Shown piece by piece: positions 23,637 through 33,254 of a stretch of DNA of 33,409 bases. Both the position numbers and the translations under genes were made by a program. This DNA is from Magnetococcales bacterium. GTDB lineage: Bacteria; Pseudomonadota; Magnetococcia; Magnetococcales; JADFZT01. The first letter of the stretch is position 1. Every line of letters starts with the position of its first letter. The notes beneath the pieces are model-generated. The model did no database searches. It was not told the origin of the DNA and saw only the letters and a program-made list of their open reading frames with translations. The stretch lies in NCBI GenBank assembly GCA_015232395.1, contig JADFZT010000056.1, positions 1-33,409 of the forward strand. Reading direction: 5' to 3'.

Positions 23637-24029
23637 ATGCTGAAAACAGTACAGGGACCACTCTTGAGGGTTTGGCTGGTTGTCGGCTTCGGTGTGTTGA
23701 GCCTGCTCTCCGGATGTGCCTTGCCGCTTCCCTGCGGAGCCCCAGGCAATCAAGCTGGCGTCAAATGTTGGACGGGGATGATGCGGGATGATTTTTTTTC
23801 ACCCTTTGAGCAGGAAACCGACAGCCAGGTGATCTTTCAGAGGGTCTGTCGGGAGATGCAGGTGGAAGCTGAAACCGCCTGCAACCAGTATGGCCTGTCA
23901 GCCCGCTTCCGGGTCTTTCCAAAGTCGATATTCCAACCATGCGATTGTTTTTTGGAACCAATGTGGTCACGCCCAGAAATTCCAAGATGCGATATTGAAT
24001 TTCGATGTATCCTTCCGACTAAAGATTGA
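23637..24029 (+). CDS. Cys-rich putative lipoprotein (130 aa)
   Basis: A hydrophobic N-terminal segment ends in the lipobox LLSGC (Cys27), so the mature protein should be lipid-anchored at the membrane. Besides Cys27, the mature part has cysteines at about 33, 44, 71, 81, 101, 103, 119 and 124, many for its size, which suggests disulfides or metal binding. I do not recognise the family. The last 50 residues are encoded in DNA of lower GC than the first part, like the next gene. The ribosome site (GGAAG) is about 12 nt from the ATG. The TPR gene starts 10 bp after its stop. Confidence 0.6.
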   Translation: MLKTVQGPLLRVWLVVGFGVLSLLSGCALPLPCGAPGNQAGVKCWTGMMRDDFFSPFEQETDSQVIFQRVCREMQVEAETACNQYGLSARFRVFPKSIFQPCDCFLEPMWSRPEIPRCDIEFRCILPTKD

Positions 24030-24039
24030 ATTTATCGCC

Positions 24040-26439
24040 ATGAATTTTTCAAATATGCTAAAACGCGGCTTGAAACACCACCAAGCAGGCCAACTGCAGC
24101 AGGCTGAAGCCATTTATCGGCAAATGTTGAGCGTTAATCCGGATCATGCAGATGCCAATCATTTTTTGGGGGTTTTGGCGAGTCAGGTGGGGCGTCATGA
24201 ATTGGCAGTTCCTTTGATTCGGAAAGCGCTTCAGTTTAGACCTGCCTTTCCCCAAGCTCATTTCAATCTAGGCCAAGCCTTGAAGGAGAGCGGTAAACTG
24301 GCTGAAGCTATTGGCAGCTATGAAAAAGCCTTGAGCCTCCAGCCAAATTTCCCTGAGGCTTTCAGCAATTTGGGCTGTGTACATGAGAAAATTGGCAACT
24401 TGGATGAAGCTATTCTCTGTCATCAGAAAGCCTTGCAGCTCAGGCCAGATTATGTTGAAGGACATTGCAATCTTGGGAATACCCTGAAGGCCCAGGGGAA
24501 ATTGAAAGAAGCCGTTGTCAGCTATCGGACGGCCCTGGGTTTGAAACCTGCTTTTTTCATGGCTCATAACAACCTGGGCCAGATTTTGATGGCGTTGGGG
24601 GCGCTGGAAGAGGCCGTTGGCCATTTCAAACAAGCTCTGGCGCTCAATCCCGATCTTCCGGAATCACTTGGAAATCTGGGAAACGTTCTTCAAAAACAGG
24701 GAAAATATGATGAGGCTGTAGCCCATTACCATCAAGCCATTGCCATCAGAGCTGATATTCCAGAAATATTTAACAATCTTGGCAATGCACTGTGTGAACA
24801 GGGAATGCAGGCGGCAGCTATTTCAAATTATCAAAAAGCGCTAAAACTCAAACCAAATTATCCCGAAGCATATAATAATCTGGGCAGTGCATTGCAAGCT
24901 GTAGATAAACTGGATGAGGCCATTGCCAATTATCAAAAAGCCTTGGCACTCAAACCTGACTTTTCTGACGCATTGGGTAACTTGGGGGTGGCTTTGCATC
25001 AGCAGGGGAGTTGGAAGGAGGCCTTTGACTGTTACAGGCAGGCCTATACCTTGAATCCTACACCAGGGCTTGAGGTCAGCTTGGCAACCCTGCTGCCTCC
25101 TATCCCGGCCTCTTCAGAGGAGATCACCAAGGCGCGGGATCGGTTGATTCGGAAAGTCCATGACCTTCAGGGGAAAGAGATTTCCATAAGTGATCCATAC
25201 AAAGAGGTGAGGCTGCCCAATTTTTATCTCGCCTATCATGGTCTGAATGATCGGGAGATTCAAAAAGAGCTGGCAAAATTTTACCTGAAGGCCTGCCCAT
25301 CACTGGCTTGGACCAGCCCCCATGTATCCAAGTGGCGGCCTCCTTTGAAAAAGATCCGGATCGGATTTGTCTCCAACCATCTCCACGGCCACACCATTGG
25401 AAAATTAAATGAGGGGGTGATCGGCCTGCTAAACAGGGATCGTTTCGAGATATGTGTTTTTCGACTACCTAGGCAGCAGGATGACATCTCCCAGCGAATC
25501 GACCAATCTGCCGACCATGTGATTTTTATTCCAAAACATTTGGAAATGGCACGCGAAATCATAGCAGAAGCCAAACCTGATATTCTTTTTTATCCGGATA
25601 TCGGCATGGAGCTGTTCACCTATTTTTTGGCCTTTGCGCGTCTTGCCCCGATTCAGTGCACGACATGGGGTCATCCGGTGACGACAGGTATTCCCAATAT
25701 GGATTATTTTATTTCATCCCGGGATTTGGAACCTGATCAAGCCAACGCACATTACACGGAACAGTTGGTCTTGATGAAATATCTTTCCAACTATTATCTG
25801 AGGCCGGAAATTCCCCATCATCAAGCCACCAGGAGTGACTTTGGGCTGCCAAAAGAGGGGGCGCTTTATGTTTGCCCCCAAAGCTTGTTCAAATTTCATC
25901 CAGATTATGACTTTCTTTTTGCAGAGTTGCTTCGAAAGGATTCCAATGGCTGGTTGGTTTTGATAGAGGGCAGTGTCGCTCACTGGACCCAGCTATTGAA
26001 ACAGCGTTTGGTCAAAGCTATGCCTGATGTGGCGGATCGCATCCTTTTCCTGCCCAGATTGTCCTTTGAACGTTATATCCAATTGATACGCTTGGCGGAC
26101 GTGATGCTGGATTTGACCAATTTTGGTGGTGGGAATACCTCTTATGAAGCTTTTGCGGTGAATACACCCATCGTGACGTGGCCTGGAGATTATCTGCGTG
26201 GCAGGATCACCCTGGCTTGTTATCGACGTATGGGTATTCTGGATCTGGTTGCCCAAGATGGACAGACCTATGTGGAGTTGGCGGTTCGCCTGACTCGGGA
26301 TTCAGCCTGGCGGGAAAAGATCGTTTCCAGGATTCGCAAAAATTCTCCATTGCTTTTCAATAACATAGAAGCGGTCCGGGAGTTGGGAGTTTTTTTTGTT
26401 TCCGCAGTGGAAAATATTGGCGATACAAACGATATCTGA
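24040..26439 (+). CDS. TPR protein with O-GlcNAc-transferase-like (GT41, SPINDLY-type) catalytic domain
   Basis: The 799-aa protein has about ten tetratricopeptide repeats in residues 1-340 (the recurring pattern NLG..L...G..dEA...Y.KAL.L.P). A short linker leads to a GT41-like GT-B domain at about 435-760, with IRIGFVSNHLHGHTIGKL, PDILFYPDIGME, APIQCTTWGHPVTTGIPNMDYFIS and FGGGNTSYEAFAVNTPIVTWPG. These are the hallmark segments of bacterial OGT/SPY-like transferases, which add a sugar to Ser/Thr of proteins. The gene is AT-richer and its codon use looser than its neighbours, which suggests horizontal transfer. The open frame extends upstream to 23890; I chose the ATG at 24040, where the first TPR begins. 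No clear Shine-Dalgarno site is present. Confidence 0.9.
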   Translation: MNFSNMLKRGLKHHQAGQLQQAEAIYRQMLSVNPDHADANHFLGVLASQVGRHELAVPLIRKALQFRPAFPQAHFNLGQALKESGKLAEAIGSYEKALSLQPNFPEAFSNLGCVHEKIGNLDEAILCHQKALQLRPDYVEGHCNLGNTLKAQGKLKEAVVSYRTALGLKPAFFMAHNNLGQILMALGALEEAVGHFKQALALNPDLPESLGNLGNVLQKQGKYDEAVAHYHQAIAIRADIPEIFNNLGNALCEQGMQAAAISNYQKALKLKPNYPEAYNNLGSALQAVDKLDEAIANYQKALALKPDFSDALGNLGVALHQQGSWKEAFDCYRQAYTLNPTPGLEVSLATLLPPIPASSEEITKARDRLIRKVHDLQGKEISISDPYKEVRLPNFYLAYHGLNDREIQKELAKFYLKACPSLAWTSPHVSKWRPPLKKIRIGFVSNHLHGHTIGKLNEGVIGLLNRDRFEICVFRLPRQQDDISQRIDQSADHVIFIPKHLEMAREIIAEAKPDILFYPDIGMELFTYFLAFARLAPIQCTTWGHPVTTGIPNMDYFISSRDLEPDQANAHYTEQLVLMKYLSNYYLRPEIPHHQATRSDFGLPKEGALYVCPQSLFKFHPDYDFLFAELLRKDSNGWLVLIEGSVAHWTQLLKQRLVKAMPDVADRILFLPRLSFERYIQLIRLADVMLDLTNFGGGNTSYEAFAVNTPIVTWPGDYLRGRITLACYRRMGILDLVAQDGQTYVELAVRLTRDSAWREKIVSRIRKNSPLLFNNIEAVRELGVFFVSAVENIGDTNDI

Positions 26440-26636: not shown

Positions 26637-28799
26637 TTACTTGACATCTCCACCCAGCTCTCTGAGGTTTTGCAGATCCTGGATCCGCTCTTCGGGATAG
26701 CCCAGGGCCTCAAAGTCGAGGATACCATCGGCAGAGTGGCACTCTTCACACTGCCTGCCATCCTTTTCAATGCCGTGGTTGATCATCAGGGTACCCATCT
26801 GTCGCATCCAGTGGGTCTCGATGTTTTGCAGAGTACCGTCCTCTTTGATGGGATATTCGTTGGACCACTCATCCACGCCAAAGTAGTTCATGAATTCATC
26901 CATCATGTAGGCCTTGAAGGGGGCCTCGTACATCCGCTTGACGATGGGGTTCTGGATCGCCTCTTTCATCGATGCCTTGGGGTCTCCCGTCTCATAGTAG
27001 GTGGGATAGTCGAAGGGCAGAATCATCGCTCCGAAGGCCCCCTGGTTGGACATATCCTCAAACATGATGGCGTTGAAGATCTTGAAGGGATAGATCCTGG
27101 ACTTGCCCTGATCCATCAAGGGGCGAATGTTGTCCTGGATCATCTGTTTGCGTTTGGCCAACATTTCCGGCGTGAGGGCCGACAGCGGATCGGTGGCCTC
27201 TTTGACATATTGATCCACATCCAGCTCCGGATAGTGCTCTTTGAGCTTCACCGCCGCCGCGCGGATTTCAGCCAAGGCTTCGGGATCGTCGATCTTCACC
27301 ATCTGGTTCATCAGCGGGTCGTATCTGTCACCACCCAGGGGATTGTTGCCCAGGGCGTTGGCCAGGAAGGTGCCGTTGCCGTTGAACCAGAGAAACTTGA
27401 ATCCCTTGTTCACCTCACCCGATTGGTAGACATCGACAAAGGTATAAGCCCCTTCCTCTTCGTTCCACACCGGGTGGACCCAATCCCTCAGCACCACGTT
27501 ATCATCCCGCAGATGGGTGATGTGGCAGGTTTCGCACGCCAGGCGGTCGATATGGCCGTTCAGAATCGCCCGGTTTTCAGCCTTCACATGGGGGGCTGCA
27601 GTGTGGCAATTTTCGCACGCCACCTCTTGCCCGGGAATGTCGTTGGCCACCAGGTCCACTCCTTTGGTCCCCCGGGGAATCTTATGTCCGGTGGGGATGT
27701 GACAATCGGTGCAGGTGAGGCCAGCAGCTGCGTGGACATCGTTGTCGGCGGTGATGGAGTTACCCCGCTTGGAGCCCGGGTGCAGCAGACGCGGATGTTT
27801 GTAGCCCAAATTGTCCGGTGCTGAGCCTTCCGGCAGATCCTTTTCCAGATCCCCGCCCATGTTATGCTGATGGCAGCTCAAACAGGTTCGATTGTTGGGC
27901 TGACCCACGGTGAGGGCGGTTTTCAGGGTCCGATCCTGATTCCAGCGCATGCCCCCTTCATCCTCGATGACGTAGCGATAGTTCATGTCATAGTCCGGTG
28001 CATGGCAGATGAGGCAATCGACGCCATTTTTGACCTCTTTCGGGACATCTCCCATCGGCATCATTTTTTCAGTCGCCGGGTGGTAGCCGCCGCCGATGTG
28101 GCACTGACCACACCCTTCGCTGCGCAGTTCAATCTCTTCACCCCCCAGATGGTGGGGCTTGGTTTTGACCAGATCCGCCCAGCCGGTCCAGGAGAAGGAG
28201 CCGGGAACACCACAGGCGCGGTCGATCTTGCCCACCGGAATGGGGCGGGTGCCGGGAGCATTTACCTCGCGGCCATCATAGCCGTAGGTGGAAAAGCCGG
28301 AGGCGGTTTGTTGAAACTTGAAGTGAACGCTTTCGATGATATCGTCCAGGGTATTGACTGTTTTGACCTTGCCATCCGGACCGGCCACTTCCATGGTTTC
28401 ATGGCATTGCAGACAGGTTTCCGGCCCCTTGTATTGACGGATTCCAGCTTTGCGGAAATAGTCAATGTGGGGATAGGGGGAGGCTGATATGAACGAACGG
28501 GTCTTCATCAGCATCTCCACCTTCACCCGCCGGGCAAAGGGGTCGGTCTCGCTATCGGTAATCTTGAGTGCCTGCTCCCGGCGATGTTGATGGGTCAGGG
28601 ATTCGGCCAGGGCCTCGAACTCAGCTTCAGAAAGAACCTCACTGGAGTCATAGGTAAGGGGACGATTGACCACGCCGGTATAGCTTTCGAAGAAGAGAGG
28701 GTAACCCCAGTAGGCGAATATCACTCCCAAAAACGTGACCGTTGAGGCGGCGATAACCGTTTTCCCCCATTTGGTACGGCTGAAATTGGGCCTGTTCAT
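26637..28799 (-). CDS. Membrane-anchored octaheme c-type cytochrome
   Basis: The 720-aa protein has an N-terminal TM anchor (about 10-37) and eight CXXCH heme sites, at Cys129, 230, 262, 306, 363, 395, 422 and 684. Seven sites sit in the first 430 residues; then come about 257 heme-free residues before the last one. The general plan recalls the octaheme OTR/HAO/nitrite-reductase group, but all eight sites are CXXCH, with no CXXCK catalytic heme, and the protein is longer than OTR as I remember it. The late segments GKSRIYPFKIF and MILPFDYP recall conserved parts of OTR-like proteins. It probably acts in the periplasm as an oxidoreductase or electron-transfer protein; the substrate is unknown. 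AGGAG lies about 7 nt before the ATG at 28799, and the gap to the cytochrome b stop is one base. Confidence 0.85.
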   Translation of the reverse strand: MNRPNFSRTKWGKTVIAASTVTFLGVIFAYWGYPLFFESYTGVVNRPLTYDSSEVLSEAEFEALAESLTHQHRREQALKITDSETDPFARRVKVEMLMKTRSFISASPYPHIDYFRKAGIRQYKGPETCLQCHETMEVAGPDGKVKTVNTLDDIIESVHFKFQQTASGFSTYGYDGREVNAPGTRPIPVGKIDRACGVPGSFSWTGWADLVKTKPHHLGGEEIELRSEGCGQCHIGGGYHPATEKMMPMGDVPKEVKNGVDCLICHAPDYDMNYRYVIEDEGGMRWNQDRTLKTALTVGQPNNRTCLSCHQHNMGGDLEKDLPEGSAPDNLGYKHPRLLHPGSKRGNSITADNDVHAAAGLTCTDCHIPTGHKIPRGTKGVDLVANDIPGQEVACENCHTAAPHVKAENRAILNGHIDRLACETCHITHLRDDNVVLRDWVHPVWNEEEGAYTFVDVYQSGEVNKGFKFLWFNGNGTFLANALGNNPLGGDRYDPLMNQMVKIDDPEALAEIRAAAVKLKEHYPELDVDQYVKEATDPLSALTPEMLAKRKQMIQDNIRPLMDQGKSRIYPFKIFNAIMFEDMSNQGAFGAMILPFDYPTYYETGDPKASMKEAIQNPIVKRMYEAPFKAYMMDEFMNYFGVDEWSNEYPIKEDGTLQNIETHWMRQMGTLMINHGIEKDGRQCEECHSADGILDFEALGYPEERIQDLQNLRELGGDVK

Positions 28800-28800
28800 C

Positions 28801-29430
28801 CTACTTCTCCTCGGGTTGAATGGTGGAACCAAACACCATTTTTTTAAACTCGCCGATGACCGTTTCACCGGCAGTAGCCAGATAGATGTGACCGATCAGA
28901 AAAATCATGAGAAAAAGACCGGTGATGTAGTGCAGAATCGCCAGGGGCCAAAGCCCGTCGAATCCAAGAAAGCTCTCCGGGGCATATTCCGGGAAGAAGA
29001 ACAAAATACCCGTCACGATCAAGACCGGCATCGCCACGAACATCACCCCCAGATAGGTCAGCTGCTGCAAGGGGTTGAACTTGGAGCGGGCGGTTGCCGG
29101 AAACGGATGGTGGGCGTCCTGAAAGATGCCGACAGCATAAAAACGGGTCTGTTCGATCAGGCGTCCTATGAGCCCCTTCAACTCCGGAACATAATGCCGC
29201 CAGTTGCCGGAAAGAATGTTGCCCACAAACCAAGCCACATAACCCACAGCGAGCAGTATGCCGCAGCTGTTGTGGAGCAGCCGGGCGGTGTTGAAGGGAA
29301 TCCAGGGAATGGCGCCGCTACCGGCAAACCGCATGGACATCCCTGAAAAGGTGAGGGCCAGGAAAAGCAGCGCATTGGTCCAGTGCCAGATGCGGATCCA
29401 AACCGGATAGAGTTGAATGTGTGTGTTCAT
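28801..29430 (-). CDS. Cytochrome b561-type / hydrogenase-FDH-PhsC-like di-heme membrane subunit
   Basis: The 209-aa protein has four TM helices with histidines placed as in the cytochrome b subunits of formate dehydrogenase, NiFe hydrogenase and thiosulfate reductase: RIWHWTNALLF (helix 1), RLLHNSCGILL (helix 2) and LHYITGLFLMIFLIGHIYLA (helix 4). It probably binds two b hemes and passes electrons between the quinone pool and the periplasmic multiheme cytochromes encoded on either side of it. AGGAGG stands about 9 nt before the ATG. The start overlaps the stop of the heptaheme gene (ATGA), so production of the two is coupled. The frame is open upstream to 29670 in another gene, and I reject that longer start. 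Confidence 0.88.
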   Translation of the reverse strand: MNTHIQLYPVWIRIWHWTNALLFLALTFSGMSMRFAGSGAIPWIPFNTARLLHNSCGILLAVGYVAWFVGNILSGNWRHYVPELKGLIGRLIEQTRFYAVGIFQDAHHPFPATARSKFNPLQQLTYLGVMFVAMPVLIVTGILFFFPEYAPESFLGFDGLWPLAILHYITGLFLMIFLIGHIYLATAGETVIGEFKKMVFGSTIQPEEK

Positions 29431-30356
29431 TGTTTCCGCCTCCTGGCAGCAAGCCAGCGTCCGATACCGTGACCCATCACTCCCAGCAGGGTGAGCGCCA
29501 AGGCCGCAATTCCCGCCCCATCCAAAAAGCGGTGGCGGGTCATGCCGATGATGTAGGATTCGTTCATCACGATGCTGTTGATGAACCCCGCCTTTTGCCG
29601 TTCCTGGCTGACCCGATGCTGGTAGAGCTTGGTCAGGAGGAGGGAATCCTTGGTGTGGCAGGCGACACAATTTTTTTCCGCCCGGTCTGCCGTGAGGATC
29701 ATATGGGAAGCGTCACTGCGATGGGTGGTATGGCACTCCACGCAACGGACTGATCGCCAGTGATGTTCTCTATTGGGCAGCCAGCTGTGGGCGACATCCA
29801 GATCGGCCAGGTCGGTAAAGTTGACCTGGGCTACGTGGGGTTTGTCGATCGTACCTGCACCGTGACAGGAGAGGCAGACCCTGTTGTGGTCGGCGACGAT
29901 GTTGGATATCTTTTCGATCCGTTCCGCCCGTTGAAAGGCGTGGGGATCGTGACAGGAAAAGCAGTCGAAATTTTCCGGTTGGCGTTGGGCGTGCACGCTG
30001 CGATTGAACGACCGCTCGATCGCTTCGAACTGCTGGCGATCAAAGTTTTGGTTGGCGTCGTGGCACTCCAGACAGTGGAGAGATTCGAGCTTTGCTTGAG
30101 AGCCGTGGGGAATCTGCTTGAAACCGCTGCCGTGGCAGTCAAGGCACTCAAGTTGGCCGTGGTTGGAGGCAGCCATTTTTTTGGGGTCCACGGAGAGGTC
30201 CACCAGGCGACCGGTTTCCCGGTCCCGGTGGGCCAGGGTCTCCATGGCGTGACAGCGTAAACATTGATCGGATGGGTGAGGGGACTCATTGGCCCATGAA
30301 GGGCCTCCCCAGAAGAGGAGGCCCAGGACCAGAGCTGCTGTAAGCCTGGCGTTCAT
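29427..30356 (-). CDS. Heptaheme periplasmic c-type cytochrome with C-terminal anchor
   Basis: The 309-aa protein has a Sec signal (1-22, cleavage after SWA), then seven CXXCH motifs at Cys32, 71, 95, 132, 161, 205 and 230. One TM helix lies near the C-terminus (about 280-297), followed by a basic tail, so it should be held at the outer face of the inner membrane. Spacing and extra histidines (for example HGS, DPHAF, THRSDASH) fit a cytochrome c3/NrfB/DmsE-like electron carrier. It is the likely redox link between the cytochrome b and the octaheme protein. The start at 30356 has AAAGG about 11 nt upstream. Confidence 0.88.
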   Translation of the reverse strand: MNARLTAALVLGLLFWGGPSWANESPHPSDQCLRCHAMETLAHRDRETGRLVDLSVDPKKMAASNHGQLECLDCHGSGFKQIPHGSQAKLESLHCLECHDANQNFDRQQFEAIERSFNRSVHAQRQPENFDCFSCHDPHAFQRAERIEKISNIVADHNRVCLSCHGAGTIDKPHVAQVNFTDLADLDVAHSWLPNREHHWRSVRCVECHTTHRSDASHMILTADRAEKNCVACHTKDSLLLTKLYQHRVSQERQKAGFINSIVMNESYIIGMTRHRFLDGAGIAALALTLLGVMGHGIGRWLAARRRKQ

Positions 30357-31475: not shown

Positions 31476-31493
31476 AAGCATCTTCCGTGCCTA
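31476..31493 (-). promoter_or_regulatory. Sigma-54 (RpoN) promoter of the ankyrin-cytochrome operon
   Basis: Read on the minus strand the sequence is AGGCACGGAAGATGCTTA. GG (31491-31490) and GC (31479-31478) are exactly 10 bp apart, and GGCACG at -24 and TGCT at -12 match the RpoN consensus (TGGCACG-N4-TTGCW) at nearly all positions. The predicted start of transcription is near 31466, about 75 nt before the ankyrin start codon. The divergent neighbour encodes a sigma-54 activator, which makes the call stronger. Confidence 0.8.
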
Positions 31494-31868: not shown

Positions 31869-33254
31869 ATGTCGAAGATGCCAACCTCAGCGGTAGGCGT
31901 AGCGTTGGAGTCCGGGGATTTTTTGCAGGATACCGCCGTAGGGGAAAAAATCGTCAACCTCCTTTTGGGACGGGTCGAGGAGGGGGTGGTGATTCTGGAT
32001 ACCCAATGGCGGGTCCGGGGGATGAATCTGGCTGCCCGGGAGCTTACCTTTTTGGGACCACTGGCGATGGGTCGCGTATTTGCCGGAGACCGGGAGGAGT
32101 GCCAGGAAAAACTCCGGACGGTTTTGAATCGAATCGCCCACACGGGGGTGGGGGAAGAGCTGATCGACTTGAGCTGCCGCAATAGTGGCAACGAGGCGTT
32201 GAAGATGGGCTTGGCAGCCATTCCCATCGGCGGCAGAGGCCAACCCTTCCAAGGGGTGGTACTGCTCTTTGCCGAAGGCACCCGTCTGGCTAATCTGACC
32301 GCCTCCCGACAGGCGGCTGGACGTTTTCACCGATTGATCGGCGGCAGTCCGGTGATGGGGGAGATTTATGCCCAGGTGGAAAACCTGGCCAACGTCGCTA
32401 CCACCGTGCTGGTAACCGGTGAGAGCGGTACCGGTAAGGAGCTTGTGGCTGAAGCGCTGCACTTTCAGGGTCAGCGCAGCCATCGGCCACTGGTGCGGGT
32501 CAACTGTTCGGCTCTTTCGGAAACCCTGCTGGAGAGTGAGCTGTTTGGCCACGTCAAAGGGGCCTTCACCGGGGCGGTGCGGGATCGGATCGGGCGTTTC
32601 AAGCTGGCGGATGGGGGAACGCTCTTTTTGGATGAAATCGGTGAAATTTCCCTGCACATGCAGACCCGGCTTTTGCGCACCCTACAGGAGCGGGAGTTTG
32701 AGCCGGTGGGCTCCTCCAGAACAGTCAAGGTGGATGTGCGCATCGTGGCGGCCACCAATCGGGATCTGCGCAAGCGGATTAAGGAAGGGGCTTTTCGGGA
32801 GGATCTTTTTTATCGTCTGAACGTGGTGGAGGTGGCCATTCCCCCTTTGCGGCAGCGTCGGGATGATATTCCCCTGCTGATCAATCATTTCCTGCGTAAG
32901 TTTAACACCAAATATCAAAGCAACATCAGTGGGGTGGCTGATAGCGTGCTGGAAGTGTGCATGACCCACCCTTGGCCCGGAAATGTCCGGGAGTTGGAAA
33001 ATGTCATTGAGCACGCCTTTGTCACCTGCCGACGGGCGGTGATCAAGATCAAGCACCTGCCCAAGGAGTTTCTCAAAGGTAAGATGCCCTGTGGGGATGC
33101 CCTGCCTCCCGTGGTGCAATCCTCCGATCCAGAGCGGGATACCATTTTGCGGGCGTTGGAAACGACCCATTGGAAAAAAAATCTGGCGGCAAAGCTATTG
33201 GGTATCAGCCGGAGTACGCTCTATCGGAAAATGGAGGTTTTCAAGATTCAGTAG
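31869..33254 (+). CDS. Sigma-54-dependent transcriptional activator with PAS-like sensor domain
   Basis: The 461-aa protein has an N-terminal sensor of about 150 residues that looks PAS-like (RVEEGVVILDTQWRVRGMNLAA). The AAA+ domain contains Walker A GESGTGKE (184-191), GAFTGA (231-236, the sigma-54 contact loop), Walker B TLFLDEIGE (251-259) and the RLNVVEVAIPPLRQRRDDIP sensor-2 region. A Fis-type helix-turn-helix closes the protein (about 425-461). There is no receiver domain, so it is probably controlled by a ligand or redox signal, not by phosphorylation. It is divergent from the cytochrome operon and is the natural activator of its sigma-54 promoter. GGAG precedes the ATG by 9 nt. Confidence 0.93.
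   Translation: MSKMPTSAVGVALESGDFLQDTAVGEKIVNLLLGRVEEGVVILDTQWRVRGMNLAARELTFLGPLAMGRVFAGDREECQEKLRTVLNRIAHTGVGEELIDLSCRNSGNEALKMGLAAIPIGGRGQPFQGVVLLFAEGTRLANLTASRQAAGRFHRLIGGSPVMGEIYAQVENLANVATTVLVTGESGTGKELVAEALHFQGQRSHRPLVRVNCSALSETLLESELFGHVKGAFTGAVRDRIGRFKLADGGTLFLDEIGEISLHMQTRLLRTLQEREFEPVGSSRTVKVDVRIVAATNRDLRKRIKEGAFREDLFYRLNVVEVAIPPLRQRRDDIPLLINHFLRKFNTKYQSNISGVADSVLEVCMTHPWPGNVRELENVIEHAFVTCRRAVIKIKHLPKEFLKGKMPCGDALPPVVQSSDPERDTILRALETTHWKKNLAAKLLGISRSTLYRKMEVFKIQ

Follow-up and report, generated by a model that had tools for sequence, protein, structure and literature searches.

Does this locus encode a new kind of cytochrome, or a known respiratory enzyme in altered form? The window, by which we mean the whole 33,409-nucleotide stretch of a contig from the magnetotactic-type Magnetococcales that was analysed, carries on its minus strand a gene for an octaheme c-type cytochrome. 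The initial annotation singled the gene out for two traits, heme motifs that are all CXXCH and a 257-residue region free of hemes before the last of them, and suggested a new branch. We conclude that the protein is probably a respiratory enzyme whose active site has been remodelled, and not a wholly new kind of cytochrome. The family is a branch of its own; the two traits are already known from octaheme tetrathionate reductase (OTR). The distinctive part of the family is heme 2 with its surroundings, residues 172-246 and 311-345. The gene has the following features.

26637..28799, minus strand: octaheme c-type cytochrome P0001, 720 aa, probable N-terminal membrane anchor, OTR-related (open reading frame, profiles, fold)
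28677..28772, minus strand: N-terminal hydrophobic helix, residues 10-41 (helix in structure models and hydrophobic stretch)
28401..28415, minus strand: heme 1 motif CLQCH, Cys129
28062..28286, minus strand: heme-2 module, residues 172-246, holding heme 2 and His240 (alignment)
28098..28112, minus strand: heme 2 motif CGQCH, Cys230, counterpart of the catalytic heme of OTR (profile and MAFFT alignment)
28002..28016, minus strand: heme 3 motif CLICH, Cys262
27870..27884, minus strand: heme 4 motif CLSCH, Cys306
27765..27869, minus strand: loop 311-345 with His312, His340 and Lys344, where OTR has GGxxDxxKHGD with the presumed heme-2 lysine (alignment)
27699..27713, minus strand: heme 5 motif CTDCH, Cys363
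27603..27617, minus strand: heme 6 motif CENCH, Cys395
27522..27536, minus strand: heme 7 motif CETCH, Cys422
26751..27521, minus strand: 257-residue heme-free stretch between hemes 7 and 8, equal to the OTR stretch plus about 80 extra residues (profile alignment)
26736..26750, minus strand: heme 8 motif CEECH, Cys684

The reading frame runs from an ATG at 28799 to a stop codon that ends at 26637; the longer frame called mechanically begins with a GTG at 28868. The eight motifs are confirmed, every one of them CXXCH and none CXXCK, and the count of 257 residues between His426 and Cys684 is exact. We collected 34 family rows, among which two pairs are identical (L033 with L005 and L034 with L012). 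The family alignment and its profile, A1, hold 30 of them, with L014, L029, L033 and L034 left out; the family matches in genomes G020, G025, G027 and G045 are absent from the family alignments (the neighbourhood in G020 is L084). The other 29 rows are 57-71% identical to the window protein, and all 30 have the eight motifs and a last gap of 254-258 residues. Since motifs and spacing recur in every row and the protein has matches in Pfam (generic multiheme ones), NCBIfam and the PDB, the frame is neither a chance nor a spurious one. In the DNA fold of the 3' end there is no notable structure (z -0.91). The helix at residues 10-41 is probably an uncleaved membrane anchor, and it falls outside the match to the OTR structure 1sp3, which begins at residue 108. 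Elsewhere in the family, the octaheme gene at L032:592-3207 (G004) encodes a protein whose hemes 1 and 2 are about 75 residues further apart than usual, a gap of 170 against a median of 95, and those of G020 and G025 are probably alike.

To what is this protein related? It is a far-diverged sister of OTR (TIGR04315), and the two have a common descent. The OTR set comes from the 40 of 299 Pseudomonadota genomes with a protein above the TIGR04315 cut-off; 30 OTR loci (L037-L066) gave alignment A3, of 29 rows (L065, a long frame, was left out), and alignment A2, of 24. When the 30 family rows were compared with the 24 OTR rows, hhalign returned a probability of 99.95 and an E-value of 8.6e-38 over 394 columns that span hemes 1 to 8. 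The distance is equally plain. TIGR04315 is the best NCBIfam model for the window protein, yet it scores 76.7 bits where its cut-off is 375 and covers residues 226-432 only, and neither this protein nor the other family members met in the 299 genomes reach that cut-off. The tree places the family on one side of a branch with an SH-aLRT of 100, and the stem branches that separate it from OTR measure 3.26 and 5.39 changes per column. With no NCBIfam model claiming the family, the suggestion of a new branch is borne out.

The OTR of S. oneidensis (SO4144, PDB 1sp3) is also the top PDB sequence match (E 1.8e-14) and, in Foldseek, the sole PDB fold match standing out (E 9.2e-15). The fold comparison gives a Z of 16.4 and an rmsd of 3.6 over 375 aligned residues, covering model residues 108-714. 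The octaheme model thus has the fold of OTR, though OTR rows were in its input alignment: the AF2 model from the family alignment alone was poor (mean pLDDT 55.7) and was set aside, and the one with 29 OTR rows added reached a pLDDT of 80.7 and a pTM of 0.84, residues 191-203 staying below 50 even there. As AlphaFold2 was, in addition, trained on PDB entries, the match to 1sp3 cannot count as evidence separate from the sequence argument. The profile comparison, for its part, owes nothing to the OTR rows in the model's input.

The likeness to OTR extends to the order of the eight CXXCH motifs, to a long stretch without hemes ahead of the last one, to the alignment columns of six distal-type histidines, to the fold and to a b561 partner gene. 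All-CXXCH therefore loses its standing as an unusual trait: each of the 29 aligned OTRs has at least eight plain CXXCH motifs, which agrees with the description of OTR in PMC11024163. The premise that CXXCK marks the known octaheme reductases is right for ONR and wrong for OTR, the nearest relative. One OTR-family protein, at L066:1360-3009, has nine CXXCH motifs.

The initial annotation also proposed that the long region forms a substrate pocket or a partner-docking domain. In OTR the corresponding stretch has 164-183 residues (median 178, counted in 28 of the 29 rows, those whose motifs number exactly eight). Because the motifs WF(N/D)G, SRI(Y/W)PFK and NH/TH-M occur in it in both profiles, we regard the two stretches as the same part of the protein, and the profile alignment runs through it. 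Only about 80 residues are extra, a helical piece near 501-562 in the AF2 model; it is poorly conserved (3 of the 60 positions of 501-560 are invariant) and unlikely to be a substrate pocket, so that the proposal of a new domain does not hold. Elsewhere the family does differ from OTR: hemes 1 and 2 are 94-170 residues apart compared with 44-52, the anchor is N-terminal and not C-terminal, and there is an extra heptaheme subunit. The remaining difference is at heme 2.

The catalytic heme of OTR is the second one, whose ligand is a highly conserved lysine, while the other seven, hemes 1 and 3-8, are bis-His and need seven distal histidines (PMC11024163). The lysine of the KHGD motif is present in 29 of 29 OTR rows and in 0 of 30 family rows. 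By our count in the alignment with 1sp3, this lysine is chain residue 153, and Lys153 is the published number; conservation and this number together suggest that the KHGD lysine is that ligand. Two signatures, EGCGQCH.GG.YHP at heme 2 and CHQHN.GGD after heme 4, are found in all 30 family rows and in none of the 29 OTR rows. The heme-2 module, with the pattern GKI.RACG.PGSF.WTGWA ... RSEGCGQCH.GG.YHP, is among the most conserved parts of the protein, 34 of its 72 non-heme positions being invariant. Ten histidines outside the motifs are invariant in the family. At six of them (His159, 356, 372, 404, 416 and 675) OTR has a histidine in the same column in 27 to 29 of 29 rows, and His111 is probably the equivalent of the first histidine of OTR, which MAFFT places two columns off. 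The remaining three, His240, His312 and His340, have no OTR counterpart (in the column of His312 a histidine occurs in 3 of 29 OTR rows). Read from these alignments, the heme-2 site of the family is remodelled: the OTR lysine is lost and three invariant histidines stand instead. Heme 2 may be catalytic here too, and one or more of these histidines may bind or guard its iron.

It could be asked whether the lysine has simply moved, so that Lys344 reaches heme 2, only the loop is rebuilt and the chemistry is that of an ordinary OTR. Lys344, four residues after His340, belongs to the same loop, the one that joins hemes 4 and 5, and is invariant in 34 of 34 rows. It faces a gap in 29 of 29 OTR rows, however, and the three invariant histidines nearby are better candidates; we consider this quite unlikely.

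Nature has provided a deletion of just this site. Two genomes of one genus, G019 and G033, carry a copy with seven motifs (L085:3221-5212 and L083:7450-9456). The copy lacks the loop 313-339 and most of residues 174-240; His240 is gone, and other residues stand at the positions of His312 and His340. The other seven motifs remain, as do His111, 159, 356, 372, 404, 416 and 675, which equal in number the distal histidines of hemes 1 and 3-8 in OTR. Since the three histidines went together with heme 2 and the seven others stayed, the simplest reading is that His240, His312 and His340 serve heme 2. Lys344 is kept in one copy and is Gln in the other, and so it is not strictly held once heme 2 is gone, a point in favour of the moved lysine.

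Constraint is weakened in the octaheme copy without heme 2. Its dN/dS (NG86) is 0.46, compared with 0.05-0.18 in seven eight-heme pairs, several of which have a dS above 0.8, where the estimate is rough; its stem branch has 0.39, and the terminal branches of five eight-heme sister rows 0.06-0.12. At the same locus the b561 gene is gone and the heptaheme neighbour is somewhat relaxed too (0.24). Both genomes have a second heptaheme-b561 pair on another contig (L086:7366-8933 and L087:847-2414), strongly constrained (0.11 and 0.09) and with no octaheme gene beside it. The seven-heme copies look like one event in one genus, and as heme 2 and b561 were both lost at one locus, the two losses are inseparable as causes of the relaxed selection.

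Might the family be a pure electron conduit, with heme 2 made bis-His by His240, His312 or His340 and electrons passing from the quinol pool to a periplasmic or outer partner? The histidines are on hand, and the seven-heme copies have kept both an open reading frame and every other ligand. There is also a precedent in MmcA (TIGR04314), the heptaheme conduit of Methanosarcina, an OTR relative without the OTR lysine and without heme 2, which the seven-heme copies have lost in parallel. As MmcA works as an electron conduit (PMC11024163), loss of heme 2 need not end function. The window protein, in contrast, keeps the heme 2 motif, scores 32.7 bits against the TIGR04314 cut-off of 250 and has no Rnf context. 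Residues 172-246 and 561-605 are more strictly conserved than a conduit should require, and constraint falls in the copy that has lost heme 2. By our estimate, 720 residues for eight hemes amount to about 10 kDa per heme, more than the 7 kDa at which PMC7096707 puts catalytic "peptide-replete" cytochromes. On balance a conduit is unlikely, though less so than a moved lysine.

The neighbouring genes and sites are these.

28801..29430, minus strand: cytochrome b561-type membrane subunit P0003, 209 aa (PF01292, E 5.7e-24)
29427..30356, minus strand: heptaheme c-type cytochrome P0002, 309 aa, with a C-terminal hydrophobic helix
30452..31390, minus strand: ankyrin-repeat protein of 312 aa with the look of an exported protein, at the head of the presumed operon (PF00023)
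31477..31492, minus strand: sigma-54-like site AGGCACGGAAGATGCT, 86 bases before the ankyrin gene
31869..33254, plus strand: divergent sigma-54 activator, AAA+ and Fis-type HTH (PF00158, E 2.5e-70)

The arrangement recurs. The heptaheme gene lies upstream of the octaheme gene in 20 of 22 loci, and b561 lies between them in 20 of 22 by clustering plus the window's own, where the clustering took a frame overlapping b561 instead (L033 and L068 come from one contig, truncated at its end). Among 48 Magnetococcales genomes the octaheme and b561 genes occur in the same 36, and the heptaheme gene in 35 of these plus G038. The ankyrin-repeat gene is first in 13 of the 22 loci; in the window its product has a signal-peptide-like start and leads the multiheme operon. 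On the other side, at 23890-26439 and convergent with the octaheme gene, is a gene for a TPR protein with a glycosyltransferase family 41 (OGT-like) C-terminal part. A sigma-54 scan of the whole window is at chance level, with 33 matches against 38.9 expected, so that the sigma-54-like site rests only on its recurrence before orthologous operons. Where a divergent regulator was called (17 of 22 loci), the weighted score, compared with mononucleotide shuffles, has p <= 0.05 in 10 loci and p <= 0.08 in 14, L074 and L081 being near relatives and the placements in L076 and L082 lying inside a called gene. No such site was found upstream in L067, L071 and L078.

A multiheme reductase paired with a b561 subunit is known from the two-gene module of OTR. 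A b561 relative, about 28-36% identical to P0003, adjoins the OTR gene in 27 of 30 OTR loci, and the three without it (L043, L048 and L053) are also without the C-terminal hydrophobic tail. This suggests that most of the OTRs that we fetched (L037-L066), having both tail and b561, form membrane-bound OTR-b561 modules and that the tail-less type is a minority here. In the window, by contrast, a separate heptaheme cytochrome bears the C-terminal anchor and precedes b561. Its C-terminal part weakly resembles that of OTR (E 7e-5 for L040). We infer that the heptaheme subunit has come to fill the position of OTR's tail next to b561, with the N-terminal helix anchoring the octaheme protein.

Our proposal is therefore a periplasmic, N-terminally tethered, quinol-fed octaheme reductase that reduces a small inorganic substrate at a remodelled heme-2 pocket, and we give it about an even chance. 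In such a module the b561 subunit would oxidise quinol, and electrons would pass from it to the membrane-anchored heptaheme cytochrome and on to the octaheme chain. Heme 2 would be where the substrate is reduced; its pocket would consist of residues 172-246 and 311-345 and include the invariant His240, His312 and His340. Flow toward the octaheme protein is presumed in this scheme, and the same parts list permits the opposite: the octaheme protein would oxidise a reduced compound, and the heptaheme cytochrome and b561 would feed the quinone pool. HAO, of the same superfamily, works as an oxidase. Sulfur oxidation has moreover been reported for Magnetococcus species (PMC8359478). The nearest relative, OTR, is nonetheless described as a reductase (PMC4484225), and P0003 resembles thiosulfate reductase cytochrome b, at 180 bits against a cut-off of 204. 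We find a reversed module very unlikely.

Several suggestions can be made regarding the substrate. By analogy with OTR, and since none of the 48 genomes of the order has NrfA (PF02335, E <= 1e-20), it may be a small nitrogen or sulfur oxyanion or hydroxylamine. HAO-type PF13447 proteins are present in 35 of the 48; these two counts make nitrite or hydroxylamine plausible candidates. OTR and the family occur together in 17 of the 48 genomes, the family only in 19, OTR only in 3 and neither in 9. They do not replace each other, and so no substrate can be read from their co-occurrence.

Other multiheme enzymes are more remote. The initial annotation had proposed comparing the protein with profile models of OTR, HAO and ONR. 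There is weak similarity to NrfA/ONR around hemes 5-6 (best NrfA chain E 9.6e-5), though these have a CXXCK motif that the window protein lacks, and Pfam NrfA stays at 19.1 bits, below its cut-off of 24.1. Among the Pfam hits at E <= 0.1 the protein has no match to the HAO model PF13447 (Multi-haem_cyto); the genome's own match lies elsewhere, on C30. The MccA sulfite reductase has a CX15CH heme site (PMC7096707), whereas the octaheme count here consists of eight plain CXXCH.

How widespread is the family? With the A1 profile it was found in 36 of 48 Magnetococcales genomes and in none of the 350 other Pseudomonadota sampled (398 genomes searched). A search of 100 genomes of relatives gave a match in 37, that in G002 being OTR-like only. 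A scan of 84,980 species genomes for close relatives only returned four loci: two in Magnetococcales, one titled Alphaproteobacteria and one titled Candidatus Latescibacterota. The last (L036:6319-10178) has the whole heptaheme-b561-octaheme module, and its flanking genes, which include those for a putative alanyl-tRNA synthetase and a putative HisF, do not recur at the other loci. It may hence represent either a transfer to another phylum or a wrong bin. Our search of open-licence papers found no description of the family and no paper on the combination of heptaheme, octaheme and cytochrome b561; the Magnetococcales papers with octaheme proteins mention them only in passing, in the text that the search covered.

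A fuller reading, which we put forward tentatively and consider less probable than our proposal itself, is that a new family of the octaheme superfamily has exchanged the lysine of OTR for a three-histidine pocket, that it serves as a terminal reductase in bacteria without NrfA, and that the natural deletion of heme 2 shows what the site is for. With a lysine-ligated heme, a histidine-rich heme and no heme at one position, nature offers a series in which the role of the lysine can be studied. The family also points to a candidate respiratory module in the Magnetococcales, whose 48 sampled genomes have no NrfA.
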